A DNA stretch of 37,939 nucleotides from contig JAILAV010000070.1 of assembly GCA_024681435.1 (NCBI GenBank), positions 1 through 37,939 on the forward strand. The letters are read 5' to 3'. The notes beneath the pieces are model-generated. The model had not been told where the DNA came from. It saw only the letters and a program-made list of their open reading frames with translations, and searched no databases. The stretch is from Pseudobutyrivibrio sp. Lineage in GTDB: Bacteria > Bacillota > Clostridia > Lachnospirales > Lachnospiraceae. The first letter of the stretch is position 1. Every line of letters starts with the position of its first letter. A program made the position numbers and the translations under genes. Below, piece after piece: positions 3,411-35,954 of the stretch.

Positions 3411-4895
3411 TTAAAACTTAAAATCATGACATTTTACATCCATTAAAACAGGTTTATCGCTGATAAATGCAATATCTTCAGCACTTAATTCTGTATCAAT
3501 TTTCATGGAAGCAGTATATCTTCCACCACAGATAAATAATTCTACACTCCATCGGTCTAAAACAACTCTAATATCTATTTTTCCATCTGTAAAATCAACT
3601 GGAAACTCTCGTGATGATAAGGCCGAAACTATATATCCGCTATTACTCCTATCAAGCTTGCACATTCTCTTTCTGCTATCAAGTTCGATAACAGTCTTAT
3701 GTTTTTCATTTTTTGCAACACAAATTTTAAAAATGTAATCCTCATTTTTTGATTCTGGTTTAAGGGCAATTTTCATATCAAGAATTCTACCTTTGATACC
3801 ATCAAGAGAAGTTGCTTTTGATATAACAACATCAGCATACTCCACTTGATTATTATAGTAGGATTCGATTTCCTTAACTGGTCGCTGATAAACGTATCCA
3901 TTTTCGAGCCAAAGTTCTCTTGGAAGAGTCATCATTCCAAAGAAACCATGTTTATCATTGCCGTAATCTTTGGTCTCCCAGTTCTGCATCCAGGCAATCA
4001 TGATACGTCTGCCATCTAAAGACTCAAGGGTTTGGGCTGCATAAAAATCTGTACCAAAATCTATAGGTTGAATGGTATGCCTCTTGAATTCAAAAGGTGC
4101 CGTTTCCTTTCCTATTAAGAAAAAGTTATTATATCCCGGCATCACATCATATCCATTACCCTCAGTTTCCTGAGGACTGACAATTAGAATCTGGCTGTCA
4201 TCAAGGCCAAAATAATCAGGACATTCCCAAACTCGGCCTACTTCCCCTTTGCTTTTGTCTAATTCTTTATAGAACTTCCAGTGAAGTGCATCCTCGCTTT
4301 CAAACACCAGGGCGTTGCCACAATCTTCACTATCCAAATTCACTGCGATAGTATAGTATTTTCCATCACGCATAATGATTTTAGGGTCTCTAAAATCATA
4401 AGGAGTACTTCCTTCTGGAATATCATCCTTTGAAATAACAGGGTTACTTGCGACTTTTTCATAATCTACTCCATCGCCTATGGCAACACACTGCTGCTGA
4501 TAGCATTTCTCACATCCGTCTACACTTGGCGCCTTTGATACACCTGTGTATATAAGCAGATGCTTTCCTTCTTTTGTTTCAATGGCGCTTCCTGAGAAGC
4601 ATCCCTCAGAGTCATATTCACTGTCAGGTGCAAGGGCGCAAGGAAGGAACTGCCACTTTATAAAATCAGATGTCTTTGAATGGCCCCAATGCATTGGTCC
4701 CCAATGATTATCAAAAGGATAATACTGGTAGAAAAGATGATATTCCCCTTTATATATTCCAAAACCATTTGGATCATTAATCCATCCTATTGTTCCAGTA
4801 GCATGAAAAGCTGGACGCTCATAAGCCGGAATCTTATTGTATTCTATTGCTTCTTTTTCATATATTCTTGCTGATTCCAACTTGTCTGTAACCAT
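3411..4895 (-). CDS. GH32 beta-fructosidase (sucrose / sucrose-6-phosphate hydrolase type), cytoplasmic
   Basis: Hydrolyses the beta-fructosyl bond of sucrose, sucrose-6-phosphate or short fructans. The 494 residues have no signal peptide, so it acts inside the cell. The five-bladed propeller shows the GH32 triad: WINDPNG with nucleophile Asp41, FRDP with transition-state Asp170, and WECPD with acid/base Glu224. A C-terminal beta-sandwich follows. AGAGGT lies five bases before the ATG. It is the last gene of the operon, 14 bases after the HAD phosphatase. Because the operon's transporter is an ABC system that does not phosphorylate, free sucrose or short fructo-oligosaccharides are more likely substrates than sucrose-6-phosphate; this is inference. 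Confidence 0.88.
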   Translation of the reverse strand: MVTDKLESARIYEKEAIEYNKIPAYERPAFHATGTIGWINDPNGFGIYKGEYHLFYQYYPFDNHWGPMHWGHSKTSDFIKWQFLPCALAPDSEYDSEGCFSGSAIETKEGKHLLIYTGVSKAPSVDGCEKCYQQQCVAIGDGVDYEKVASNPVISKDDIPEGSTPYDFRDPKIIMRDGKYYTIAVNLDSEDCGNALVFESEDALHWKFYKELDKSKGEVGRVWECPDYFGLDDSQILIVSPQETEGNGYDVMPGYNNFFLIGKETAPFEFKRHTIQPIDFGTDFYAAQTLESLDGRRIMIAWMQNWETKDYGNDKHGFFGMMTLPRELWLENGYVYQRPVKEIESYYNNQVEYADVVISKATSLDGIKGRILDMKIALKPESKNEDYIFKICVAKNEKHKTVIELDSRKRMCKLDRSNSGYIVSALSSREFPVDFTDGKIDIRVVLDRWSVELFICGGRYTASMKIDTELSAEDIAFISDKPVLMDVKCHDFKF

Positions 4896-12536: not shown

Positions 12537-15116
12537 TTAGGTAAATAATTTACTGCCGTCGGAATCAATTGTAATAGTTGCTCCTTCGTGAATATCTCCA
12601 CCAAGGATAATCTTGGCGGCCATTGTTTCCACATTCTTTTGAATATATCTACGAAGTGGTCTTGCTCCATAAACCGGGTCGTAACCCTGGTCAATTACAA
12701 ACTGCTTTGCGGCAGGTGTAAGCTCAATCTTAAGCTGTCTGTCCTCAAGTCTTTTATTAAGTTCTTCAAGGATAAGATCTACAATACCACCGATGTTGCT
12801 CTTTGTAAGAGGCTTGAACATTATGATTTCATCAAGTCGATTCAAAAACTCTGGTCTAAATGAATTTCTCAAATCATTCATAACTAAGTCATTTGTCTCT
12901 GATGTAATCTCACCAGTAGTTTCATCTATTCCCTCAAGCAAATACTGTGAACCGATGTTGCTTGTAAGGATAATAATGGTATTTTTGAAATCAACTGTTC
13001 GTCCCTGAGAATCTGTGATACGACCATCATCAAGAACCTGAAGCAATACATTAAACACATCTGGATGAGCCTTTTCAACCTCATCAAAAAGCACTACTGA
13101 ATATGGCTTGCGGCGAACTGCCTCTGTAAGCTGACCGCCCTCATCATAGCCCACATATCCTGGAGGTGCTCCGATAAGACGAGATACACTAAACTTTTCC
13201 ATGTACTCTGACATATCAAGACGAACCATAGCATTTTCATCATCGAAAAGTGCCTGTGCCAAAGTCTTTGCAAGCTCTGTCTTACCTACACCTGTAGGTC
13301 CTAAGAATAAGAATGAACCAATTGGCTTGCTAGGATCTTTGATGCCTGCCTTTGAACGGATGATTGCTTCTGAAACAAGCTTTACTGCATCATCCTGGCC
13401 CATAACTCTCTTGTGTAATTCCTCATCAAGATGAAGAGTCTTGCTTCGCTCAGTCTCATTTAACTTAGCAACAGGAATGCCTGTCCATCTAGAAATAATT
13501 CTTGCTATTTCTTCCTCAGAAACATTTTCATGAACAAGATTTGCATTTCTGCCCTTTAGTCTCTCCTCTGCCTCTTCTAACCTGGCTTCTAATTCTGGGA
13601 GTCGTCCATACTGAAGCTTTGCAGCTTCCTCTAAATCATATTTTTGCTGAGCAATCTTTATCTGGCCTTGAATATCATCAAGCTCTTCCTTTACCTTCGC
13701 CACATCTTCGACTAACTTCTTTTCATTGTCCCATGCAGCTTTCTTGGTATTGTACTCGTCACGAAGTTCTGATAATTCCTTCTGAAGATCAGCCAAACGG
13801 TCTTTAGAAAGCTTGTCTGTTTCCTTCTTAAGGGCTGCCTCTTCAATCTCAAGCTGCATTACTCTTCGATTCATTTCATCAAGCTCTGCTGGCATAGAAT
13901 CAAGCTCTGTTTTAATAAGTGCACAAGCCTCGTCCACAAGATCAATTGCCTTATCTGGAAGGAACCTATCTGAAATATATCTATTAGAAAGTGTAGCTGC
14001 TGAAACTAATGCGCCATCTGTAATTTTGACGCCGTGGAATACTTCGTAGCGTTCCTTAAGACCACGTAGGATAGAAATAGTATCTTCTACCGTTGGCTCA
14101 TCAACCATTACAGGCTGGAAACGTCGCTCAAGTGCTGCATCCTTTTCAATGTACTCTCTATACTCATCAAGTGTAGTAGCACCTATACAATGAAGCTCAC
14201 CTCGTGCAAGCATAGGCTTTAACATATTGCCAGCATCCAGGCCACCACTTCCATTTTTACCTGCACCGATGATAGTGTGAAGCTCATCAATAAAAAGAAT
14301 TATTTCGCCGTCTGAATTTTTAATCTCATCAAGAACAGCTTTTAATCTTTCCTCGAACTCACCCTGGTATTTTGCGCCGGCAATCATGGAACCTATCTCA
14401 AGTGAGAATACTTTTTTATTCTTAAGGGCATCTGGTACATCACCCCTTACAATTCGCTGAGCCAAGCCCTCTACAACAGCTGTTTTACCAACACCTGGTT
14501 CACCGATAAGCACTGGGTTATTCTTAGTTTTACGGCTAAGGATTCTGATTACATTTCTGATTTCCTCATCACGACCAATTACAGGATCAAGCTTGTTATC
14601 ACGTGCACGCTCTACAAGGTCGTAACCATATTTTTCAAGAGTATCATATGTAGCTTCCGGGTTATCCGTATTTACGGTTTGATTTCCTCTAACTGTTGCG
14701 AGAACTCCAAGGAATGCATCCCTTGTGATACCAAAACTCTTGAATATATTTTTTATAGGAGTGCTAGGTTTTTTAATCATGGCAAGCATCAAATGCTCTA
14801 CCGAAACATAGCTGTCATGCATAGCCTTGGCTTCGTCCTCAGCATATGTAAGAACATAATTAAGATGCTGACCAACTCTTAAATCGCCACCTTGAACTTT
14901 TACTCTAGCTTGAAGTGCAGCATCAACTGCGCTTTTAAACTGCTCTACATCGATTTCCATCTTACTTATTAAAGAAGGAATCAATCCATTCTCCTGACGC
15001 AAGAGTGCCATCAGAAGATGTTCTTGCTCAATTTCCTGGTTTCCATATTCCATAGCTATCTTTTCACAACCATTGATAGCTTCTATTGATTTCTGCGTAA
15101 ATTTTTGGATGTTCAT
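12537..15116 (-). CDS. clpB: ATP-dependent disaggregase ClpB
   Basis: Hexameric Hsp100 chaperone that, with DnaK, pulls polypeptides out of aggregates. Full length at 859 residues: N-terminal Clp_N repeat domain (1-145), NBD1 with Walker A GEPGVGKT (205-212) and Walker B LFIDELHT, a coiled-coil middle domain (about 405-525), then NBD2 with GPTGVGKT and [15 protein letters not shown], and the C-terminal D2-small domain. The long middle domain separates it from ClpC and ClpE; no ClpP-binding loop is apparent. GGAGG lies before the ATG. It is monocistronic: a CIRCE-overlapped promoter upstream and a strong terminator downstream. Confidence 0.97.
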
Positions 15117-15177
15117 AATATCACCTCCTAAAATTGCTTGGTGTTCTCCCGATAATCACTTTTTTTATTCTAATAAC

Positions 15178-15219
15178 GTTATAAAACAAAAATTAGCACT
15201 CGTCAACGCCGAGTGCTAA
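15178..15219 (-). promoter_or_regulatory. CIRCE operator overlapping the clpB promoter
   Basis: Perfect CIRCE element TTAGCACTC-N9-GAGTGCTAA (15193-15219), the HrcA repressor site. On the minus strand TTGACG (15201-15206), 17 bases, TATAAC (15178-15183) forms a sigma-A promoter whose -35 lies inside the CIRCE. Heat relief of HrcA should induce clpB. Confidence 0.95.
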
Positions 15220-15260
15220 TAATTAATAAACATTTTAGATTTTAACCCATTTTCATCATG

Positions 15261-15617
15261 TTATTTTTCTTTTTTTACAAGTGCAAAAATAATTACCATC
15301 AGTTCCTCCGATGCAAGATATAAAATGTAGTAGATAAATTCTGGATGATGTAATCCTACAAATATGTAGCCAAGAATGCAAACAATAAAAAGTATTGTAT
15401 TTACTACTAAAAGAACTGTCTTATTGCCCTTTAACTTACAATCAAAAATAAATTTACCAAATAACAATCCTAATGGCACAATAACAGAGAGAGGCATAAA
15501 AACAGAATACATAGCAGAGTTACTAACCATGTAATATGCTGCTTCAATATAATTAGTTTTTATGTAGGCAAATGCACAACTAACTATTATGTAAAGAATT
15601 AAAAATAAATATTGCAT
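15261..15617 (-). CDS. Small four-helix membrane protein, third gene of the agrD operon
   Basis: 118 residues, almost all hydrophobic, with about four membrane segments (near 1-18, 35-55, 68-88 and 93-113) and a lysine-rich cytoplasmic tail (VKKEK). I do not recognise a family. It starts 15 bases after the stop of the secreted-protein gene, with AGAGGT upstream, so it belongs to the same minus-strand transcript as agrD. Pairing of a small membrane protein with an exported protein suggests self-protection, anchoring or export, but nothing in the sequence proves any of these. No clear terminator separates it from the clpB promoter region downstream. Confidence 0.72.
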   Translation of the reverse strand: MQYLFLILYIIVSCAFAYIKTNYIEAAYYMVSNSAMYSVFMPLSVIVPLGLLFGKFIFDCKLKGNKTVLLVVNTILFIVCILGYIFVGLHHPEFIYYILYLASEELMVIIFALVKKEK

Positions 15618-15632
15618 TTTTTACTTTTACCT

Positions 15633-16259
15633 CTAATTTGTAACCTTCACAAACGCCTCAATTGTATGAGGTGTCATTCCTGAAACATTAACTGTAGCAG
15701 ATGAATATGCTCTAGCTCCACTTCCTGCTTCAACAACGTTAGGATACCAATCTACCCATCCCCATCCTGTTTTATAAGAAAATGAGTTTTTATTCGGATA
15801 CTTATGATCGGAATGTCCTTTTATCGCAGAGCCGTCTCCATAATGCACTTCTCTGTTTGTCATAAAAATATGAGACGAAGATGGCTCCCAGCTACCGCTG
15901 ACACTGTTTACACGTACTTTTTCTCCCGCGCGATCATAATTAATCGAGATTGTCGCTTTGACATCAGTTTCGGTAACTGATGTTCCTGTAGCTAATGGTG
16001 GTATACCTGTTTGTGGTATAGAAAATGTAATCTCTGTTTTTTTAGTATATGAATTATCATCCATAACCTCAATACTGCTGTTTATATTTTCGGTAGGAAC
16101 AATCATCTTTTCTCCTGTTATACTATCTGTAATCAAGACTATTGATTGTAAATTTTCTTCATTATTGGCTTCAATCTCATTCATGTCAGCTGCAAATGCA
16201 GTAGTCGAAATAGATAAGATAAAAATAAACGATATTAATACAGATACCACTTTTCTCAT
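15633..16259 (-). CDS. Secreted protein of unknown function, co-transcribed with agrD
   Basis: 208 residues with a classical Sec signal peptide (basic MRKVV, hydrophobic core, cleavage after AFA near residue 23). The mature part has an acidic N-terminal stretch (about 24-50), then a Ser/Thr-rich, probably beta-stranded domain ending with an aromatic GWGWVDWYP segment (166-174) and the C-terminal IEAFVKVTN. There is no cysteine in the mature chain, no anchor and no recognised enzymatic motif. AAGGAGG lies eight bases before the ATG. It starts 40 bases after the agrD stop, so it is the first cargo gene of the quorum-sensing operon. A secreted effector or bacteriocin-like product is possible but unproven. 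Confidence 0.8.
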   Translation of the reverse strand: MRKVVSVLISFIFILSISTTAFAADMNEIEANNEENLQSIVLITDSITGEKMIVPTENINSSIEVMDDNSYTKKTEITFSIPQTGIPPLATGTSVTETDVKATISINYDRAGEKVRVNSVSGSWEPSSSHIFMTNREVHYGDGSAIKGHSDHKYPNKNSFSYKTGWGWVDWYPNVVEAGSGARAYSSATVNVSGMTPHTIEAFVKVTN

Positions 16260-16299
16260 AGATGAAACCTCCTTAACACATAAATGTCAATTTCCCTTT

Positions 16300-16434
16300 T
16301 TATTTGTTCTTCAATTTTTTTGGTACAGTTGGCTCATAAATAAAATTCCTACATAGTTTATTAGCATTTCTTTTGGCATTTTTCTCCAAGAGTTTTAATG
16401 CCGCTTTGCCTATAAAATCTTTATTCATCTGCAT
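16300..16434 (-). CDS. agrD: AgrD-type autoinducing peptide precursor
   Basis: Short gene for a cyclic-thiolactone pheromone precursor. Three in-frame ATGs (16440, 16434, 16428) follow AAGGGAG; the middle one has the best spacing (six bases) and gives 44 residues. The N-terminal part is an amphipathic, lysine-rich helix (DFIGKAALKLLEKNAKRNAN). The core is CRNFI, then YEPTVPKKLKNK. Relative to the Cys, Glu at +6, Val +9, Pro +10, Lys +11 and Leu +13 coincide with Staphylococcus aureus AgrD (CDFIM followed by DEVEVPKEL), so a five-residue ring CRNFI with cleavage before the Tyr is predicted. It is divergent from agrC-agrA-agrB and preceded by LytTR-type direct repeats. Confidence 0.88.
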   Translation of the reverse strand: MQMNKDFIGKAALKLLEKNAKRNANKLCRNFIYEPTVPKKLKNK

Positions 16435-16478
16435 CTGCATCTCCCTTCTTTTTTTATAGAGGAATACTAACATTTTTT

Positions 16479-16532
16479 CTCATACAACAGTGTGTATAAT
16501 ACCCCAACTGCAAATATTTATACCCCAACTGC
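16479..16532 (-). promoter_or_regulatory. agrD promoter with two LytTR (AgrA-type) direct repeats
   Basis: Minus-strand repeats GCAGTTGGGGTAT at 16520-16532 and 16499-16511 are identical over 13 bases and start exactly 21 bases apart, two helical turns. CAGTTGGGG resembles the ACAGTTAAG-type AgrA site. The proximal copy supplies the -35 TTGGGG (16502-16507); 17 bases later is TATGAG (16479-16484). This matches promoters activated by AgrA from a site abutting the -35. Confidence 0.85.
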
Positions 16533-16605
16533 TAGTAAAGATATTGTTAGACATATATACAGATGTTAAACTGAATATAACAGAATATTCAGGAGGTTTT
16601 ATATA

Positions 16606-17964
16606 ATGCTAGCATGGGAATATGTATGGGAAATATTTGTTAATATGATTGAATCTTTTCTATTTCTTATTTTTATGGAAGATCATCTAGGTTCTAAAAT
16701 ATTTAAATCATATAGATATACAACTTTAATTAAAATAGTTTTTATTATTATTGATTCTATAATTACAGACTATACAAATTTCATTAATCTCAATGCTGCT
16801 TATCGGGTATCAATAGGATTATTTACATTTGTATTCTTCGCTTTTATTTTTTACAATAATTCTCCATTTAAAAAAATACTATTTCCTTGCATATTTACTT
16901 TGTTTCTCTTAATTTCCGATACTACTGCTATGCTAATTTCTTCAATCTTCTTAGATGGAAACATCGAAACAATGAAGATGGGAGGTCTTCTCCGAATTCC
17001 TACCACAAGCATATATATATTAACAATAATAATATTTATCTTTATAATGCATGTCTTTCAAAAAAATCCTTGCCTACTTCAAGCCCGCAAGTATATTTAT
17101 TTATTTTATTGCCTCATAGGTTTTAGCTCGTGCTATTACATATCAGCCATTACTATTCAATCTTTTTATTTATTTCATAATTTTAAATTTACCAAAAATA
17201 TGATTTTCATATCATCATTCTTCTCAGTTATATTTATACTGCTACTAGCTTATATATATAATTTAAGCTGCGAAAGAGAAAAAAATCAGAAACTGCTCGA
17301 GGAACGCCGCCAACTAATATTTGAAGAAGCCGAATATAAAAATCTATTAGAATTAACTTCATCTTTACGTCAATTTAAGCATGATGTGCAACATCATTTA
17401 AACGCTCTAGAGTATATTTCTCGAAATGGTTCTCAATCTGAACTAGAAGAATATATTACAAATTTTAATGGTGAAATTGAAGAAACTCATAAATTTATAT
17501 CCTCCGGTAATATGACAATAGATTCCATTTTGTCTAGTAAAATTCCCGCCGCTGAAGCCAAAGGGATAAAGGTTACATATGCTTTATCCATTCCTAACGC
17601 TTTTTCACTGAACCCCGTTAACATTGCTACCATTTTAGGAAACCTTTGGAACAATTCAATTGAAGCCTGTGAACAACTTAAGTTTTCCAATAATAAATCT
17701 TTAATACCGTCGATTGATTTTTATATTAAACCAATCCAAAACATGCTCTTAATCAGCATCGAGAACACATTCAATGGTATTGTTTTCACAAGATCAGATG
17801 GGACATATCTATCCACAAAAAAAGATGGTATATATCATGGTTTCGGACTTCAAAGAGTTATTAAAATAACTAAAGAAAATGACGGATTTATTGATATCAC
17901 CAGTGATAATAATAAATTCTGCGTACATATTATGTTTCCATTAGAAAGAGAGCCTAGTTTATGA
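16606..17964 (+). CDS. agrC: AgrC-like sensor histidine kinase (peptide receptor)
   Basis: Membrane receptor for the agrD-derived peptide. 452 residues: six or seven hydrophobic helices fill residues 1-220, then a dimerisation helix with the H-box RQFKHDVQHHLN (phospho-acceptor His259) and a GHKL ATPase domain with N-box GNLWNNSIEAC (345-355) and a G-box HGFGLQRV (411-418). The acceptor context is the HPK10 type shared by AgrC and ComD. AGGAGG lies nine bases before the ATG. Its end overlaps the agrA start (ATGA type). The gene is clearly richer in A+T than the flanking clpB or rarA, as are agrA and agrB, which may point to acquisition. Confidence 0.9.
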   Translation: MLAWEYVWEIFVNMIESFLFLIFMEDHLGSKIFKSYRYTTLIKIVFIIIDSIITDYTNFINLNAAYRVSIGLFTFVFFAFIFYNNSPFKKILFPCIFTLFLLISDTTAMLISSIFLDGNIETMKMGGLLRIPTTSIYILTIIIFIFIMHVFQKNPCLLQARKYIYLFYCLIGFSSCYYISAITIQSFYLFHNFKFTKNMIFISSFFSVIFILLLAYIYNLSCEREKNQKLLEERRQLIFEEAEYKNLLELTSSLRQFKHDVQHHLNALEYISRNGSQSELEEYITNFNGEIEETHKFISSGNMTIDSILSSKIPAAEAKGIKVTYALSIPNAFSLNPVNIATILGNLWNNSIEACEQLKFSNNKSLIPSIDFYIKPIQNMLLISIENTFNGIVFTRSDGTYLSTKKDGIYHGFGLQRVIKITKENDGFIDITSDNNKFCVHIMFPLEREPSL

Positions 17965-18686
17965 AAATAACAATTTTAGAGGATTCAGATTCAGAACTAA
18001 AAAAACTTAAAAAAGAATTGATCAGTTGGAGTATTGAAAAAAACATAGACATCTACATAAATACATTTAATTCTGGAGAAGATTTTTTTGCTAAACCCGA
18101 AAACTATTCTTCGACAATCGATTTATTCATTCTTGATATTTCGATGAAAAAAATGAGCGGTATTGAGGTATCAAAAAAACTACGCTCTCAAGATTATCAA
18201 GGTGAAATCATTTTTTTAACTGCATTTAAAGAATTTGTCTTCGACGGGTACGAGGTCCATGCATTTAACTATCTTTTAAAACCTATTGATTCAACACTGT
18301 TAAGACGTTGCTTAAACGAGATAGCCAAAAAAAAGTACTCAACTTGCCATGTATATAGAGACACTAAACATGAAATGATTTCAATTCCATATACTGAAAT
18401 TATTATTTGCTCTGTAAACCGTCATTACGTTGACATCACAACTAAAGATAATGTTTATACTCAACATATTGATTTGTCTGAATTATTAAAAATTCTCCCC
18501 AACGAATTTATTCAAGTACATCGTTCCTACGTTGTAAACATGAGACATGTTTTTTCGGTAACACATAACAAAATCTATCTATCAAACAGTACAGTCGTAG
18601 ACATTGGTAGAACTTATGCCAGCTCTTTTAAAAAAGAATTTTTAAAGTATTCAACACGTTTTAATCGAGACGAGGAATATTATTGA
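17961..18686 (+). CDS. agrA: AgrA-like LytTR response regulator
   Basis: Cytoplasmic partner of AgrC, 241 residues. The receiver domain (1-120) has the acidic pocket Glu7-Asp8, phospho-acceptor Asp59 in LFILDISM, the conserved Thr in FLTAF and Lys in LLKPID. The C-terminal half (about 140-235) is a LytTR DNA-binding domain with FIQVHRSYVVNMRHV. Proteins of this kind bind 9-base direct repeats spaced about 21 bases, which is what lies before agrD. It overlaps agrC by four bases and agrB by four. No matching repeat is seen upstream of agrC, so the sensor arm may be constitutive while the peptide arm is autoinduced. Confidence 0.92.
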   Translation: MKITILEDSDSELKKLKKELISWSIEKNIDIYINTFNSGEDFFAKPENYSSTIDLFILDISMKKMSGIEVSKKLRSQDYQGEIIFLTAFKEFVFDGYEVHAFNYLLKPIDSTLLRRCLNEIAKKKYSTCHVYRDTKHEMISIPYTEIIICSVNRHYVDITTKDNVYTQHIDLSELLKILPNEFIQVHRSYVVNMRHVFSVTHNKIYLSNSTVVDIGRTYASSFKKEFLKYSTRFNRDEEYY

Positions 18687-19249
18687 TTATGGATACTCTA
18701 GCAATAAAAATAGTAAATCATTTTGCCCGATGGACAAATAAAAAATTTAATATTGATGATATGGAAGTATATTATTATGGCATGATATGTCTTCTTAACC
18801 AATTATGTGTTAATTCCATAATAGCAATTTGGGCTATCATAACGCACTGCTTTTTCGAAACTTTGTGTTTTCTATCAGTCTTCACGTTTCTCCGCCATCA
18901 CGCTGGAGGTTATCATGCTAAATCAAATGAGCGTTGTGTAATTTTTAGTTCACTAATTGTTATACCGTTAAAAATAATTCTCCCCTACTCACATTGGATT
19001 ACGTCCAAACGATTTCCAATAATAATACTAGTATTATTTATAAGCACCCTATTAGCTCCAATAGATTCTAAAAAATTTGAGCTTTCAAGACGCCAAAAGT
19101 TATGTGAAAAAACCATAACATTATGCATTATAATTGTTTGTAGCGTTGTGTCCAATTATATTCCTGCAAATTATATCACGGCTATACTCTACTCTTTATT
19201 GGTTACTTCATTTTTAATGATACTTTCCAAAATAAAACATATAGTTTAA
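18683..19249 (+). CDS. agrB: AgrB-like pheromone-processing membrane protease
   Basis: Integral membrane cysteine protease that cuts the AgrD C-terminal tail and forms the thiolactone. The 188 residues contain the family hallmark RHHAGGYHAKSNERC: catalytic His78 and Cys85, seven residues apart as in S. aureus AgrB (His77/Cys84). Hydrophobic segments lie near 34-55, 57-70, 87-100, 108-125 and 150-182. The start is either TTG at 18683, six bases after GAGGA and overlapping the agrA stop, or ATG at 18689; the longer form is given. It is the last gene of the plus-strand arm; no agrD is found downstream of it, so the divergent agrD is its expected substrate. Confidence 0.92.
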   Translation: MIMDTLAIKIVNHFARWTNKKFNIDDMEVYYYGMICLLNQLCVNSIIAIWAIITHCFFETLCFLSVFTFLRHHAGGYHAKSNERCVIFSSLIVIPLKIILPYSHWITSKRFPIIILVLFISTLLAPIDSKKFELSRRQKLCEKTITLCIIIVCSVVSNYIPANYITAILYSLLVTSFLMILSKIKHIV

Positions 19250-19457
19250 AAAAAGTAATCAACAACTACAAAGTGTACCTTACGTACAAAAACCAATTAA
19301 CTCTTAGACACAGCCCACTTTCCTGTCGGCATACAGGTAAGACGATTTTATTTGCGTTAGCTTCCAATTACTCAGATGCCAAATAGTCTAGGAAGAATAC
19401 CACCTGTCGTAAACACTTACATTGCGAACACACTGCATTTGCCCAAATTCAGCCAAA

Positions 19458-19687
19458 AGTATTATATAGCCATAATCTTCTGTTTTAATACTGAAATCAG
19501 CTCTGAAACAGCCTATTTTTTCGCGTTTTTGTATTATATAAGCACGAATCACGATTTTAATACTGAAAAAAACGACTTTCCAGTATTAAAAAAGAGATAC
19601 ATTCTTATTTAATACTTTTCTCAGGATAAAGCGCCTGAAATCCAGCTAAAATAGTATTAAAATCAAATTTCCCCTTGTTTTAATACT
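19458..19687. repeat. Four regularly spaced palindromic elements (AGTATTAAAA / TTTTAATACT)
   Basis: Four 35-base elements, each AGTATTA-like, about 15 variable bases, then TTTTAATACT: 19458-19492, 19530-19564, 19582-19616 and 19653-19687. In each the two half-sites start 25 bases apart, and orientations alternate strictly. Periods are 72, 52 and 71 bases. The outer arms of the last two can pair over 9-10 bases, and the + arm of element 2 pairs with the - arm of element 3 over 11. Flanks also share pieces (AAATTCAGCCAAAA, AAATCCAGCTAAAA). There is no protein-coding gene in 19250-19811; a 78-codon plus-strand frame here has no ribosome site and spans the repeats. Confidence 0.7.
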
Positions 19688-19811: not shown

Positions 19812-20147
19812 TTAGCGCACATTTCCTAATACCAAAAATTCATACGGCTTCAACTCAACCTTAGCTGCCTCAATAGTTCCAGATTCTTCGTAATTATCTA
19901 TAACTATTTCGATCCCCAAAAGCCTATTTTTCAACTCAGCGCCTAATGGCACTTCTACTACATCCCCCGACATGTTACCAAACACAACCATTTCTTCATT
20001 GCCCAGCATGCGTTTGTAACACATAACACTTTCTGGCACATCCATAATGAACTTAATGTCGCCTTCTGAAATTACCTTACGTTCCTTACGCAACTTTATA
20101 AGCTTCTTATAGAAAGCCAGGATAGAATCCTCATCATTAATAATTAT
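19812..20147 (-). pseudogene. C-terminal remnant of a GH13 alpha-glucosidase (treC/malL-like)
   Basis: The frame matches the last ~110 residues of the intact treC product encoded at 22323-23975: NDEDSILAFYKKLI, LRKE-K-IS-G-IKF, DVPE-VMCY, GNMS and ELKP-EF are shared, roughly half of all positions being identical. Similarity starts abruptly at NDEDS (about 20147); upstream the frame reads a stop and nothing matches. An internal ATG at 20093 gives 93 codons, but this would be only the C-terminal beta-sandwich without the catalytic barrel. It is therefore a 5'-truncated gene, now just downstream of the chemoreceptor. Divergence from treC argues against a recent duplication; it is more likely what remains of a replaced or ancient paralogue. 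Confidence 0.88.
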
Positions 20148-22322: not shown

Positions 22323-23975
22323 TTAACCAAAAACTACAAACTCAAATGGCTTTAATTCAAGCTCATTTCCATTATATTTTCCCGTATTGACATAATTGCC
22401 AATAATAATACGTTTTCCTCCAAGTTTCTGATTAATCTCAGAATCCTGTGAAACAACTATTTTCTCAGCTGACATATTGCCGAGAATCACCCATTTTTCA
22501 TCCCCCAGCGCTCTTTCGTAGCACATTACCTGTTCTGGTACATCTGTAAAAAACTTGATATTACCATGTGAAATAATCTTATTTTCTTTTCTTAATCTAA
22601 TTAGCTTCTTATAGAATGCCAGAATAGAATCCTCGTCATTAAGCTGAGATTCTACTGTGATGCTTTTACCAAATTCTGGCACCTCAATCCAAGGCTCACC
22701 TGTAGAAAATCCATCGTTTTTAGTATTGTCCCACTGCATTGGTGTACGACAGTTGTCACGAGAGCGTTCGTTGATTATTTTAAGAGCCTCACTTTTAGTC
22801 TTTCCTTGCTCTATTAAGATATTGTAATAATTCAAGCTCTCCACATCCTTATACTGACTAATATCAGTGAAGTGGGTATTAAGCATTCCTATTTCTTCGC
22901 CTTGATAAATATAAGGTGTACCACGCATCAGATGAATCAGACCTGCAAATAGCTTTCCGGATTCCTTCCAATATTTTCCCTCATCTCCAAAACGAGAAAT
23001 TGTTCGTGGCTGATCGTGGTTAGTCCAAAAGACTGCATTCCAACTGTTGGCCTTTGCCATTTGCTCCTGCCAGTCCTTGAATATATTTTTCAAAGCCTGC
23101 TTATCGTATGGCATCAGCTGCCACTTGTCTCCATTTTTGTAATCCACTTTCAGATGATGAAAGCTGAATACCATAGACAATTCTTTTTCATCTGGATTTG
23201 CATAGTTAATGCAATTTGCAATAGTGGTAGAAGACATTTCACCTACAGTTATCATATCTTCAATGCCTGTATCTTTAACAAGCTCCTTTAGATACTCGTC
23301 CATCTTTGGACCATCTGTATAGAATCTTCTTCCGTCTCCTTCATAATCATTTTCTAAGGAATCAGGTTTAGAAATCAAATTTATAACATCAAATCTGAAT
23401 CCGCTAACACCTTTATCTTTCCAAAATCTTATGATGTCCTTTAGCTCTTTTCGAACCTCAGGATTTTTCCAGTTTAAATCAGCCTGAGTCACATCAAATA
23501 GATGCAAGTACCATTTCTTTAAACCATCTTCATATTTCCAAGCGTTACCGCCAAATTTTGAAACCCAATTTGTAGGGGGCACATTTTCAGAGCCCTCCAC
23601 AAATATATAGTAGTCTTGATATTTCTTATCTCCAGCTAGAGCCTTCTTGAACCACTCATGCTCTGTGGATGTATGATTGAAAACCATATCTAGCATCAAT
23701 CCAATGCCTCTTTTTGAAGCTTCTGCTGAAAGTTCCTCAAAATCTGACATAGTTCCAAATCTTGGATCAATCTGCCTGTAGTCTGCAATATCATATCCGT
23801 TATCCCTCTGTGGAGAGATGAAAAACGGAGTAAGCCAAATGTAATCTACCCCCAAATCCTTCAGGTAGTCCAACTTTTTAGTGACTCCCTTTAAATCTCC
23901 AAAGCCATCACCATTTGTATCATAAAATGACCTTGGATAAATCTGATAAACTACTTTGTCTTTGAAATCTGACAT
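22323..23975 (-). CDS. treC: Trehalose-6-phosphate hydrolase (GH13)
   Basis: Cytoplasmic alpha-glucosidase that splits imported trehalose-6-phosphate to glucose and glucose-6-phosphate. The 550 residues follow TreC along their length: WLTPFFISPQRDNGYD, LDMVFNHTS, nucleophile Asp196 in GFRFDVINL, the GDGRRFYTDGP stretch (213-223) typical of trehalose-6-phosphate hydrolases, acid/base Glu246 in TVGEMSS, and Asp321 in TNHDQPR. No signal peptide. Its ATG directly follows the treP stop codon, with GGAGG inside the end of treP, so translation is probably coupled. Oligo-1,6-glucosidase (MalL) is the alternative, but the neighbouring PTS and regulator favour TreC. Confidence 0.92.
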   Translation of the reverse strand: MSDFKDKVVYQIYPRSFYDTNGDGFGDLKGVTKKLDYLKDLGVDYIWLTPFFISPQRDNGYDIADYRQIDPRFGTMSDFEELSAEASKRGIGLMLDMVFNHTSTEHEWFKKALAGDKKYQDYYIFVEGSENVPPTNWVSKFGGNAWKYEDGLKKWYLHLFDVTQADLNWKNPEVRKELKDIIRFWKDKGVSGFRFDVINLISKPDSLENDYEGDGRRFYTDGPKMDEYLKELVKDTGIEDMITVGEMSSTTIANCINYANPDEKELSMVFSFHHLKVDYKNGDKWQLMPYDKQALKNIFKDWQEQMAKANSWNAVFWTNHDQPRTISRFGDEGKYWKESGKLFAGLIHLMRGTPYIYQGEEIGMLNTHFTDISQYKDVESLNYYNILIEQGKTKSEALKIINERSRDNCRTPMQWDNTKNDGFSTGEPWIEVPEFGKSITVESQLNDEDSILAFYKKLIRLRKENKIISHGNIKFFTDVPEQVMCYERALGDEKWVILGNMSAEKIVVSQDSEINQKLGGKRIIIGNYVNTGKYNGNELELKPFEFVVFG

Positions 23976-35186: not shown

Positions 35187-35900
35187 TTATCGGTTAACAA
35201 ACTGATAATCTTTAATCTGTTGTGTGATATCTGAAACCTTTCTTGCTGAGATAGGAAAAATTGTCTTATCATTCATGTAAACGTCCCCCCCGTTAACACG
35301 AGCAATAAAGTCCATATTAATGATAATTCCCCTATTTATCATTAAAAATCTCCTGTCAGAACCTGTCAGCTGAACAAATTCGCTGGATGTAAGTCTTGCC
35401 CTAGTGGAATTGTTATCATCCTTATTTATCTCCAAATAATGACCATCTGTTGTTACAGAAACGATATCGTGAAGATAAATTCGCTCTTCGATTGATCCAG
35501 TTGTAATCTTAATAAAAGCTTCATCTAGTGGTGTGTGTGCGATTATCTCTGAAACGACCTGATTAATTCTGTCTATTGTAAATGGTTTTGTCACATAATC
35601 AAATGCATGTAATAAAAACGCGTCTGGATAATGTCCATCTGATGCTGTTAAGAAAATTAAGAATGTACGCTCAGTTAGACCTCTTAATTTTCTTGCAGTT
35701 TCGATACCGTCCATGCCTGGCATGAAAATATCCATGAAGACAATATCGAATCTTCTTGAAGATAATGCTTCAATAAAATCCAGGCCACTTCCAAACTCCT
35801 CCACTTCAAGCGGAATGGCCTTCTTAGCCGAAAGTTTCTCTACCATCATTTTTAATTGCATTCGAAAGATACTTTCGTCATCAATAACTGCAATTCTCAT
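35187..35900 (-). CDS. LytTR-family response regulator
   Basis: 237 residues. Receiver domain 1-120 with acidic pocket Asp7-Asp8, phospho-acceptor Asp57 in IVFMDIFMPGMDG, a Thr in FLTASD and Lys in VTKPF. The C-terminal part (about 135-232) is a LytTR DNA-binding domain (HDIVSVTTDGHYLEI, FLMINRGIIINMDFI). It differs clearly from the AgrA-like protein at 17961-18686. It lies upstream of, and on the same strand as, the surface-protein gene (137-base gap with LytTR-like repeats) and is divergent from the hybrid kinase gene. The kinase is the likely partner, although LytTR regulators normally pair with GHKL/HPK10 kinases rather than hybrid HisKA kinases. Confidence 0.92.
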   Translation of the reverse strand: MRIAVIDDESIFRMQLKMMVEKLSAKKAIPLEVEEFGSGLDFIEALSSRRFDIVFMDIFMPGMDGIETARKLRGLTERTFLIFLTASDGHYPDAFLLHAFDYVTKPFTIDRINQVVSEIIAHTPLDEAFIKITTGSIEERIYLHDIVSVTTDGHYLEINKDDNNSTRARLTSSEFVQLTGSDRRFLMINRGIIINMDFIARVNGGDVYMNDKTIFPISARKVSDITQQIKDYQFVNR

Positions 35901-35954
35901 AATAAACCCCTTTTAAATTCTATTGTATAAAAAATGATACCACAATTCAGTCAA

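Follow-up and report, generated by a model that had tools for sequence, protein, structure and literature searches.

Why would a bacterium place the signal gene of a peptide quorum-sensing system on the strand opposite the genes that process and sense the signal? The question is raised by a 37,939-nucleotide stretch of Pseudobutyrivibrio sp. DNA (contig JAILAV010000070.1 of assembly GCA_024681435.1; the whole stretch is called the window here), in which agrC, agrA and agrB follow one another on the plus strand and agrD lies upstream of agrC on the minus strand. The original prediction, made from the letters alone, described this as a complete agr locus in a split, divergent arrangement. The locus is confirmed as real: all four components have family matches, and the coordinates and strands first given are correct. 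Our answer starts from what was observed by computation, namely the gene families, their key residues, the layout and its recurrence, and conserved repeats accompanied, on the side of agrD, by a promoter-like pair. We propose, with a probability of about 0.73, that the locus is an Agr variant in which AgrA would autoinduce an operon for signal and cargo while agrC, agrA and agrB would be transcribed separately.

The sensor gene agrC (16606-17964, plus strand) encodes a histidine kinase of 452 amino acids (aa) with six hydropathy peaks (PF14501, 58.9 bits). It overlaps by 4 bases with agrA (17961-18686, plus strand), which encodes a LytTR response regulator of 241 aa with PF00072 (Response_reg) and PF04397 (LytTR) both above cut-off. 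The membrane cysteine protease AgrB matches PF04647 at 92.9 bits (cut-off 23), and its plus-strand gene begins either at a TTG (18683-19249, 188 aa) or at an ATG (18689-19249, 186 aa). The overlap first described for all three genes therefore stands for agrC and agrA, but between agrA and agrB it exists only with the TTG start. His259 of AgrC, Asp59 of AgrA, and His78 and Cys85 of AgrB (TTG numbering), the residues singled out as functional, are each invariant in six-row alignments. The window holds an AgrB protease, an AgrD with cysteine and tail, a polytopic AgrC kinase and a LytTR AgrA. It does not have the classical agrBDCA order, with agrB and agrD adjacent, in the same direction and in one operon; the two genes lie 2.3 kb apart on opposite strands. 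An Rfam scan of the window gave no family at gathering score, so a staphylococcal RNAIII was not found, and an RNA of an undescribed kind may be present.

Is the short gene truly agrD? Its open reading frame (ORF) spans 16300-16473 on the minus strand, and the likeliest start, 16434, is the second of three closely spaced in-frame ATGs, giving a propeptide of 44 aa (16300-16434). It scores 34 bits against TIGR04223 (cut-off 19), while a Pfam search of the ORF gave no match. The core reads CRNFI, the predicted ring, followed by YEPTVPKKL, and the YEP tail is also found in seven relatives collected with a looser pattern, which bears out the identity first proposed. In a 14-row AgrD alignment the Cys, YEP and P are common by construction, the collecting pattern having demanded them. 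The five-residue ring stands at the same spacing from the tail as in the AgrD of Staphylococcus aureus. An amphipathic stretch marks the leader: of its 12 windows the best has a helical moment that 0.46% of shuffles reach, uncorrected for the choice of window. Could the ORF nevertheless be a chance match, the real agrD lying elsewhere? The host genome is incomplete (81%, 2.23 Mb), which leaves room for one. Within it AgrB has a single match and AgrD a single match above cut-off, a second one reaching 12.4 bits, below it. We exclude chance because the TIGR04223 score lies well above the cut-off and because independent TIGR04223 matches stand at loci of this type in six genomes (G019, G021, G027, G366, G295 and G146). 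The same tail also occurs at the same place in related loci, and none of 14 control genomes matched AgrD at the genus-scan threshold (at E 10, ten matched, none above cut-off). A chance origin is thus extremely improbable.

The arrangement, first presented as a departure from known loci, is not unique to the window. Among 29 genomes of the genus, AgrB is matched in 14 (E <= 0.001), ten of them full-length with E < 1e-10, and AgrD in nine; the loci of those ten were read, and four have the C-A-B layout (G000, G019, G021 and G027). Besides the window we collected 14 related C-A-B loci: nine full-length relatives from an AgrC alignment scan (L050-L058, three of them from the same genus), G146, L108, L109, L110 and L113. 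An intact agrD diverges directly from agrC in 11 of these 14, or in 12 of 15 with the window, so that the short gene is conserved in relatives, a point on which the original prediction had made itself depend. Of the three exceptions, L055 has an agrD (about 4136-4240) with an in-frame stop right after CRG, beside an intact-looking agrCAB, so that either the signal gene has decayed or the assembly is at fault; a contig break in G027 leaves agrCAB and agrD near the ends of two separate contigs; and G146 has two units, agrD being the first gene of the second. The agrB of L054 was found at about 10989 by six-frame search. The AgrCs of the window, G019, G021, G027, G366, G295, L052, L055 and L058 form one clade (100/100) in a 32-row tree, which leaves out L054, G146 and the four loci from another family. 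Two other divergent layouts of agrD, D|A-C-B in G348 and D|B-A-C in G030 (loci L032 and L046), have AgrCs that fall outside the clade and are not counted here. Because the AgrCs of G348 and G030 lie outside it, divergence of agrD is suggested to have arisen more than once.

These loci come from two scans. The AgrC alignment scan gave 15, of which nine were used and L062 and L064 left out; L059, L060, L061 and L063 had no convincing agrD, the loose-pattern matches in L059 and L061 (each in a long ORF) being unlike AgrD. The second scan (E <= 1e-40, scoring no more than four candidates in each genome) gave 15 matches in 13 of 373 genomes: L105 is G019, L106 is the window, L107-L113 were read and L114-L119 left out. 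Four of the seven read (L108, L109, L110 and L113) have C-A-B with a divergent agrD and belong to a family other than that of the window; in L107 (G331), L111 (G686) and L112 (G663) regular expressions found no agrD, over 3.4 kb only for L112, and these are not counted. An AgrB single-sequence scan of genome contigs found no relative where the AgrC alignment scan did, and a scan of viral contigs gave none.

How far does this depart from the usual order? In a census of 397 genomes of the family, each searched for AgrB and AgrD, at least 150 AgrD matches were listed, 40 without a listed AgrB on the same contig and 110 with one. Among these 110, 88 lie on the same strand within 600 bp, 13 on the same strand at 600-6000 bp, three on the same strand beyond 20 kb and six on the opposite strand, five of the six upstream (G000, G366, G295, G348 and G030). 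Adjacency of agrB and agrD, which the original prediction took as general, is the rule, but it is not universal: agrD does not adjoin agrB in Clostridium autoethanogenum either (PMC8748961). Two further kinds of separation were seen. In G082 (L080-L088) at least 13 AgrD and at least two AgrB matches are among those listed; the stretches read, which cover nine of the 13 AgrDs, hold seven triads of agrC-agrA-agrD that lack agrB and two AgrDs with no neighbours of that kind; agrB occurs there once on its own (L086) and once as agrB-C-A (L087). This suggests an AgrB shared among several AgrDs. In three Pseudobutyrivibrio genomes (L022, L023 and L024) agrA-agrC-agrD adjoins what look like genes for a lanthipeptide synthetase and a C39-peptidase transporter (for L023 alone, these were compared with Pfam); agrB stands some 12-13 kb off.

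What marks the agrD side of the gap? A putative AgrA/LytTR operator at 16502-16532, on the agrD-sense (minus) strand, consists of two copies of GCAGTTGGGG at exactly a 21-bp period; this pair is the only exact copy in the host genome, with one 3-mismatch match elsewhere. The period equals that of the AgrA consensus, with its 9-bp half-sites and 12-bp spacer. Relatives carry [AG]TTCGTG-like copies at the identical period, and the four loci of another family, which played no part in framing the idea, retain the 21-bp period with a different, TTTCACGAC-like half-site. Summed over 13 gaps, lag 21 gives 135 of 156 matches; none of 1000 shuffle sets exceeds 108, and no other lag from 13 to 45 exceeds 100. 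In all eight relatives a TTG-type -35 (4-5 of 6 positions) begins 19-20 nt past the start of the second repeat and is followed by a -10 (4-5 of 6), in a search that tried only spacers of 16-18.

Would such an operator serve agrC as well? If it were bidirectional, phosphorylated AgrA would activate both agrD and agrCAB, the whole system would be autoinduced, as it is in S. aureus, and no regulatory meaning would attach to the split. The pair does sit between the two start codons, some tens of bases before agrC, and AgrA does serve the divergent promoters P2 and P3 in S. aureus (PMC4227749). Yet in S. aureus P2 and P3 each have binding sites, with direct repeats upstream of both (PMC4227749), whereas here the repeats and the fixed promoter spacing lie on the agrD side: motif pairs are agrD-sense in nine of nine gaps and agrC-sense in none of the nine, the motif having been drawn from these same gaps. 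We consider a bidirectional operator quite unlikely.

Eight of the 12 matches to a TTCGTG-pair-plus-TTGAAA pattern in seven genomes lie in agr loci, including all six with two mismatches or fewer, and the remaining four have three mismatches. Four genomes of the other family gave seven matches versus two in the control, among them three perfect ones at the agrD promoter and one with 2 mismatches in G697 (C194); G701's own site was missed by the scan. In G146 an operator and promoter of this form precede not only agrD but also a secreted metallopeptidase gene (PF00413, 36.4 bits, cut-off 24), and G021 and G027 have an operator-promoter site downstream of agrB. The targets predicted from these sites are mainly local: agrD, the metallopeptidase unit of G146, and the site 3' of agrB in G021 and G027.

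Several observations weigh against the Agr variant proposed here. Five of the 13 gaps (L054, L055, L056, L057 and L113) are weak alone, 58-180 of 1000 shuffles reaching their values, and in a motif-free search the top lag-21 match in L055 and L056 is not at the operator. L107, which has C-A without B or D, has no such repeat. The 12 pattern matches above compare with seven in a backward control, and G366 and G000 have no match to the pattern. In the window no good -35 was found at the expected place before agrD, and a consensus promoter scan of 15100-19500 gave 27 candidates versus 26.8 in shuffles, no excess, with none in the gap facing agrD. The other 23 rows of the AgrC tree are a biased sample, many chosen for odd agrD placement, in which conventional loci are under-represented. 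The related loci are not independent, L052 and L055 being nearly alike and L108-L110 alike; agrC of L113 is divided into two ORFs; and another agrD or agrB could be missing from the host assembly. The bias of the tree sample and the promoter scan, which listed none facing agrD in the gap, slightly lower our confidence.

What travels with the signal gene? That agrD heads its own operon holds good: two genes follow it on the minus strand. The first (15633-16259) encodes an exported-looking protein of 208 aa with no family above cut-off, one hydropathy peak (residues 4-22) and a hydrophobic N-terminus ending AFA. The second (15261-15617) encodes a protein of 118 aa, predicted to have four membrane helices and matching no family; an immunity role for it is a guess. 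In 12 of the 14 loci where agrD is intact, the gene after it looks exported (judged by eye, with no signal-peptide program); L109 and L110 do not clearly conform. Eight of the 12 exported-looking products were tested against families, and only that of L054 (SH3_3) scored above cut-off. Genes named from their sequence as ATP-binding cassette (ABC) transporters follow in L056, L057, L058 and L092; the ATPases of L056 and L058 have matches to models for lantibiotic protection and the like, below those models' cut-offs.

Relatives of the 208-aa cargo occur in seven of 397 genomes at E <= 0.001, the host genome included. Full-length but distant ones are in G088 and G074 (L076 and L077), at 28.5 and 26.3 bits by phmmer, whose E-values from a four-sequence set are not meaningful. 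The match in G090 is a 76-aa piece only (64% over 70 residues), those in G368 and G418 cover only the first 33 residues, and that in G046 has 26% identity over residues 42-160 within a 515-aa frame. Compared by phmmer, the membrane proteins that follow the cargo in the window and in L076 did not match one another. AlphaFold, run on the single cargo sequence minus its first 25 residues, gave a poor model (mean predicted local distance difference test score, pLDDT, 42.2).

Might the locus then be chiefly an island of secreted effectors, bacteriocin with immunity, under a borrowed agr system, its AgrD made by AgrB but signalling little? The exported-looking products, the transporter genes and the four-helix protein behind the cargo would fit, and a bacteriocin-immunity reading of the cargo is possible. 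Against such an island, the cargo differs between loci and the cargo tested is mostly without family matches. Moreover, no agr genes were found beside its nearest full-length relatives in the stretches read (8 kb for L076 and 16 kb for L077), though agr genes are present on a different contig of G088, the genome that holds L076. We regard an effector island as unlikely.

How would an autoinduced signal-and-cargo operon work? AgrB would cut and cyclise AgrD to a thiolactone peptide with the predicted ring Cys-Arg-Asn-Phe-Ile; AgrC would sense the cyclic peptide and phosphorylate AgrA, which would bind the 21-bp-period repeats and activate the agrD promoter. The loop would raise the output of signal and secreted cargo, with feedback through signal supply, and agrC-agrA-agrB would be expressed from a promoter of their own that has no such repeats. 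The suggestion that autoinduction reaches the peptide and its cargo alone is strengthened by the operator-like pair, found on the agrD-sense strand only, and the suggestion is kept here as a prediction. We infer peptide processing, AgrA binding, one-sided feedback and a part for the cargo in interactions with other cells.

Is there a precedent? The components are standard Agr; the layout and the proposed regulatory wiring are new. As in S. aureus, there are four homologous components and a divergent layout with repeats, here putative AgrA sites, between the units (PMC12312760, PMC4227749). In S. aureus, however, agrB and agrD adjoin in one operon and RNAIII lies opposite, whereas in the window agrD and a protein cargo do. 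Clostridium acetobutylicum likewise has several transcription units (agrBD, agrCA and CA_C0082), with an effector gene under Agr control, but its agrB and agrD are together in one unit (PMC10301443). The D1-C1-B1 and D2-C2 operons of C. autoethanogenum, for which one AgrB is proposed to serve two AgrDs, also separate agrD from agrB; unlike the window, they are without agrA, and the available part of that paper describes no divergent agrD (PMC8748961). Known agr loci tabulated in PMC12312760 (Table 1) have B and D always written as neighbours. We found no report of an agrD-headed divergent operon in the literature listings and passages searched.

More tentatively, and with rather less than even confidence, C-A-B with a divergent agrD may be a distinct, exchangeable Agr subtype of Lachnospiraceae and of one or more further families in the order. 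The genes for sensing and processing would stand outside the loop, positive feedback would be confined to a local operon for the signal and fast-turnover secreted effectors, and the sensor module would be re-armed with different cargo in each species. The locus offers a clean natural case for testing whether the receptor has to be part of Agr feedback. How far rumen bacteria use peptide quorum sensing is a matter on which the evidence has been called limited (PMC10838665), and the conserved agrD promoter with its repeats gives a sequence handle for predicting the signals, operators and cargo of bacteria from gut and rumen.

The cassette lies beside clpB. Upstream of clpB, in stretches of 2.6 to 8 kb (L135-L154), the genes present vary across many of the 20 Pseudobutyrivibrio relatives read, although a few pairs look alike, which suggests a variable insertion site. 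None of these 20 relatives (of 28 other genus genomes) showed a CAB cassette there, and G021 has a weak AgrA/AgrC-like pair at that place. Between clpB and the cargo operon, an inverted repeat at 15192-15220 (ATTAGCACTC...GAGTGCTAAT) was flagged as terminator-like; it resembles a CIRCE/HrcA element for clpB. On the other side of the cassette, a 93-aa ORF (19812-20093) matches the same place in L148 as does an alpha-amylase-like gene (22323-23975), and is possibly a leftover copy of that gene's end. Farther along the window, a second LytTR-type response regulator (35187-35900) points away from a large gene at 35934, named from its sequence as a histidine kinase.

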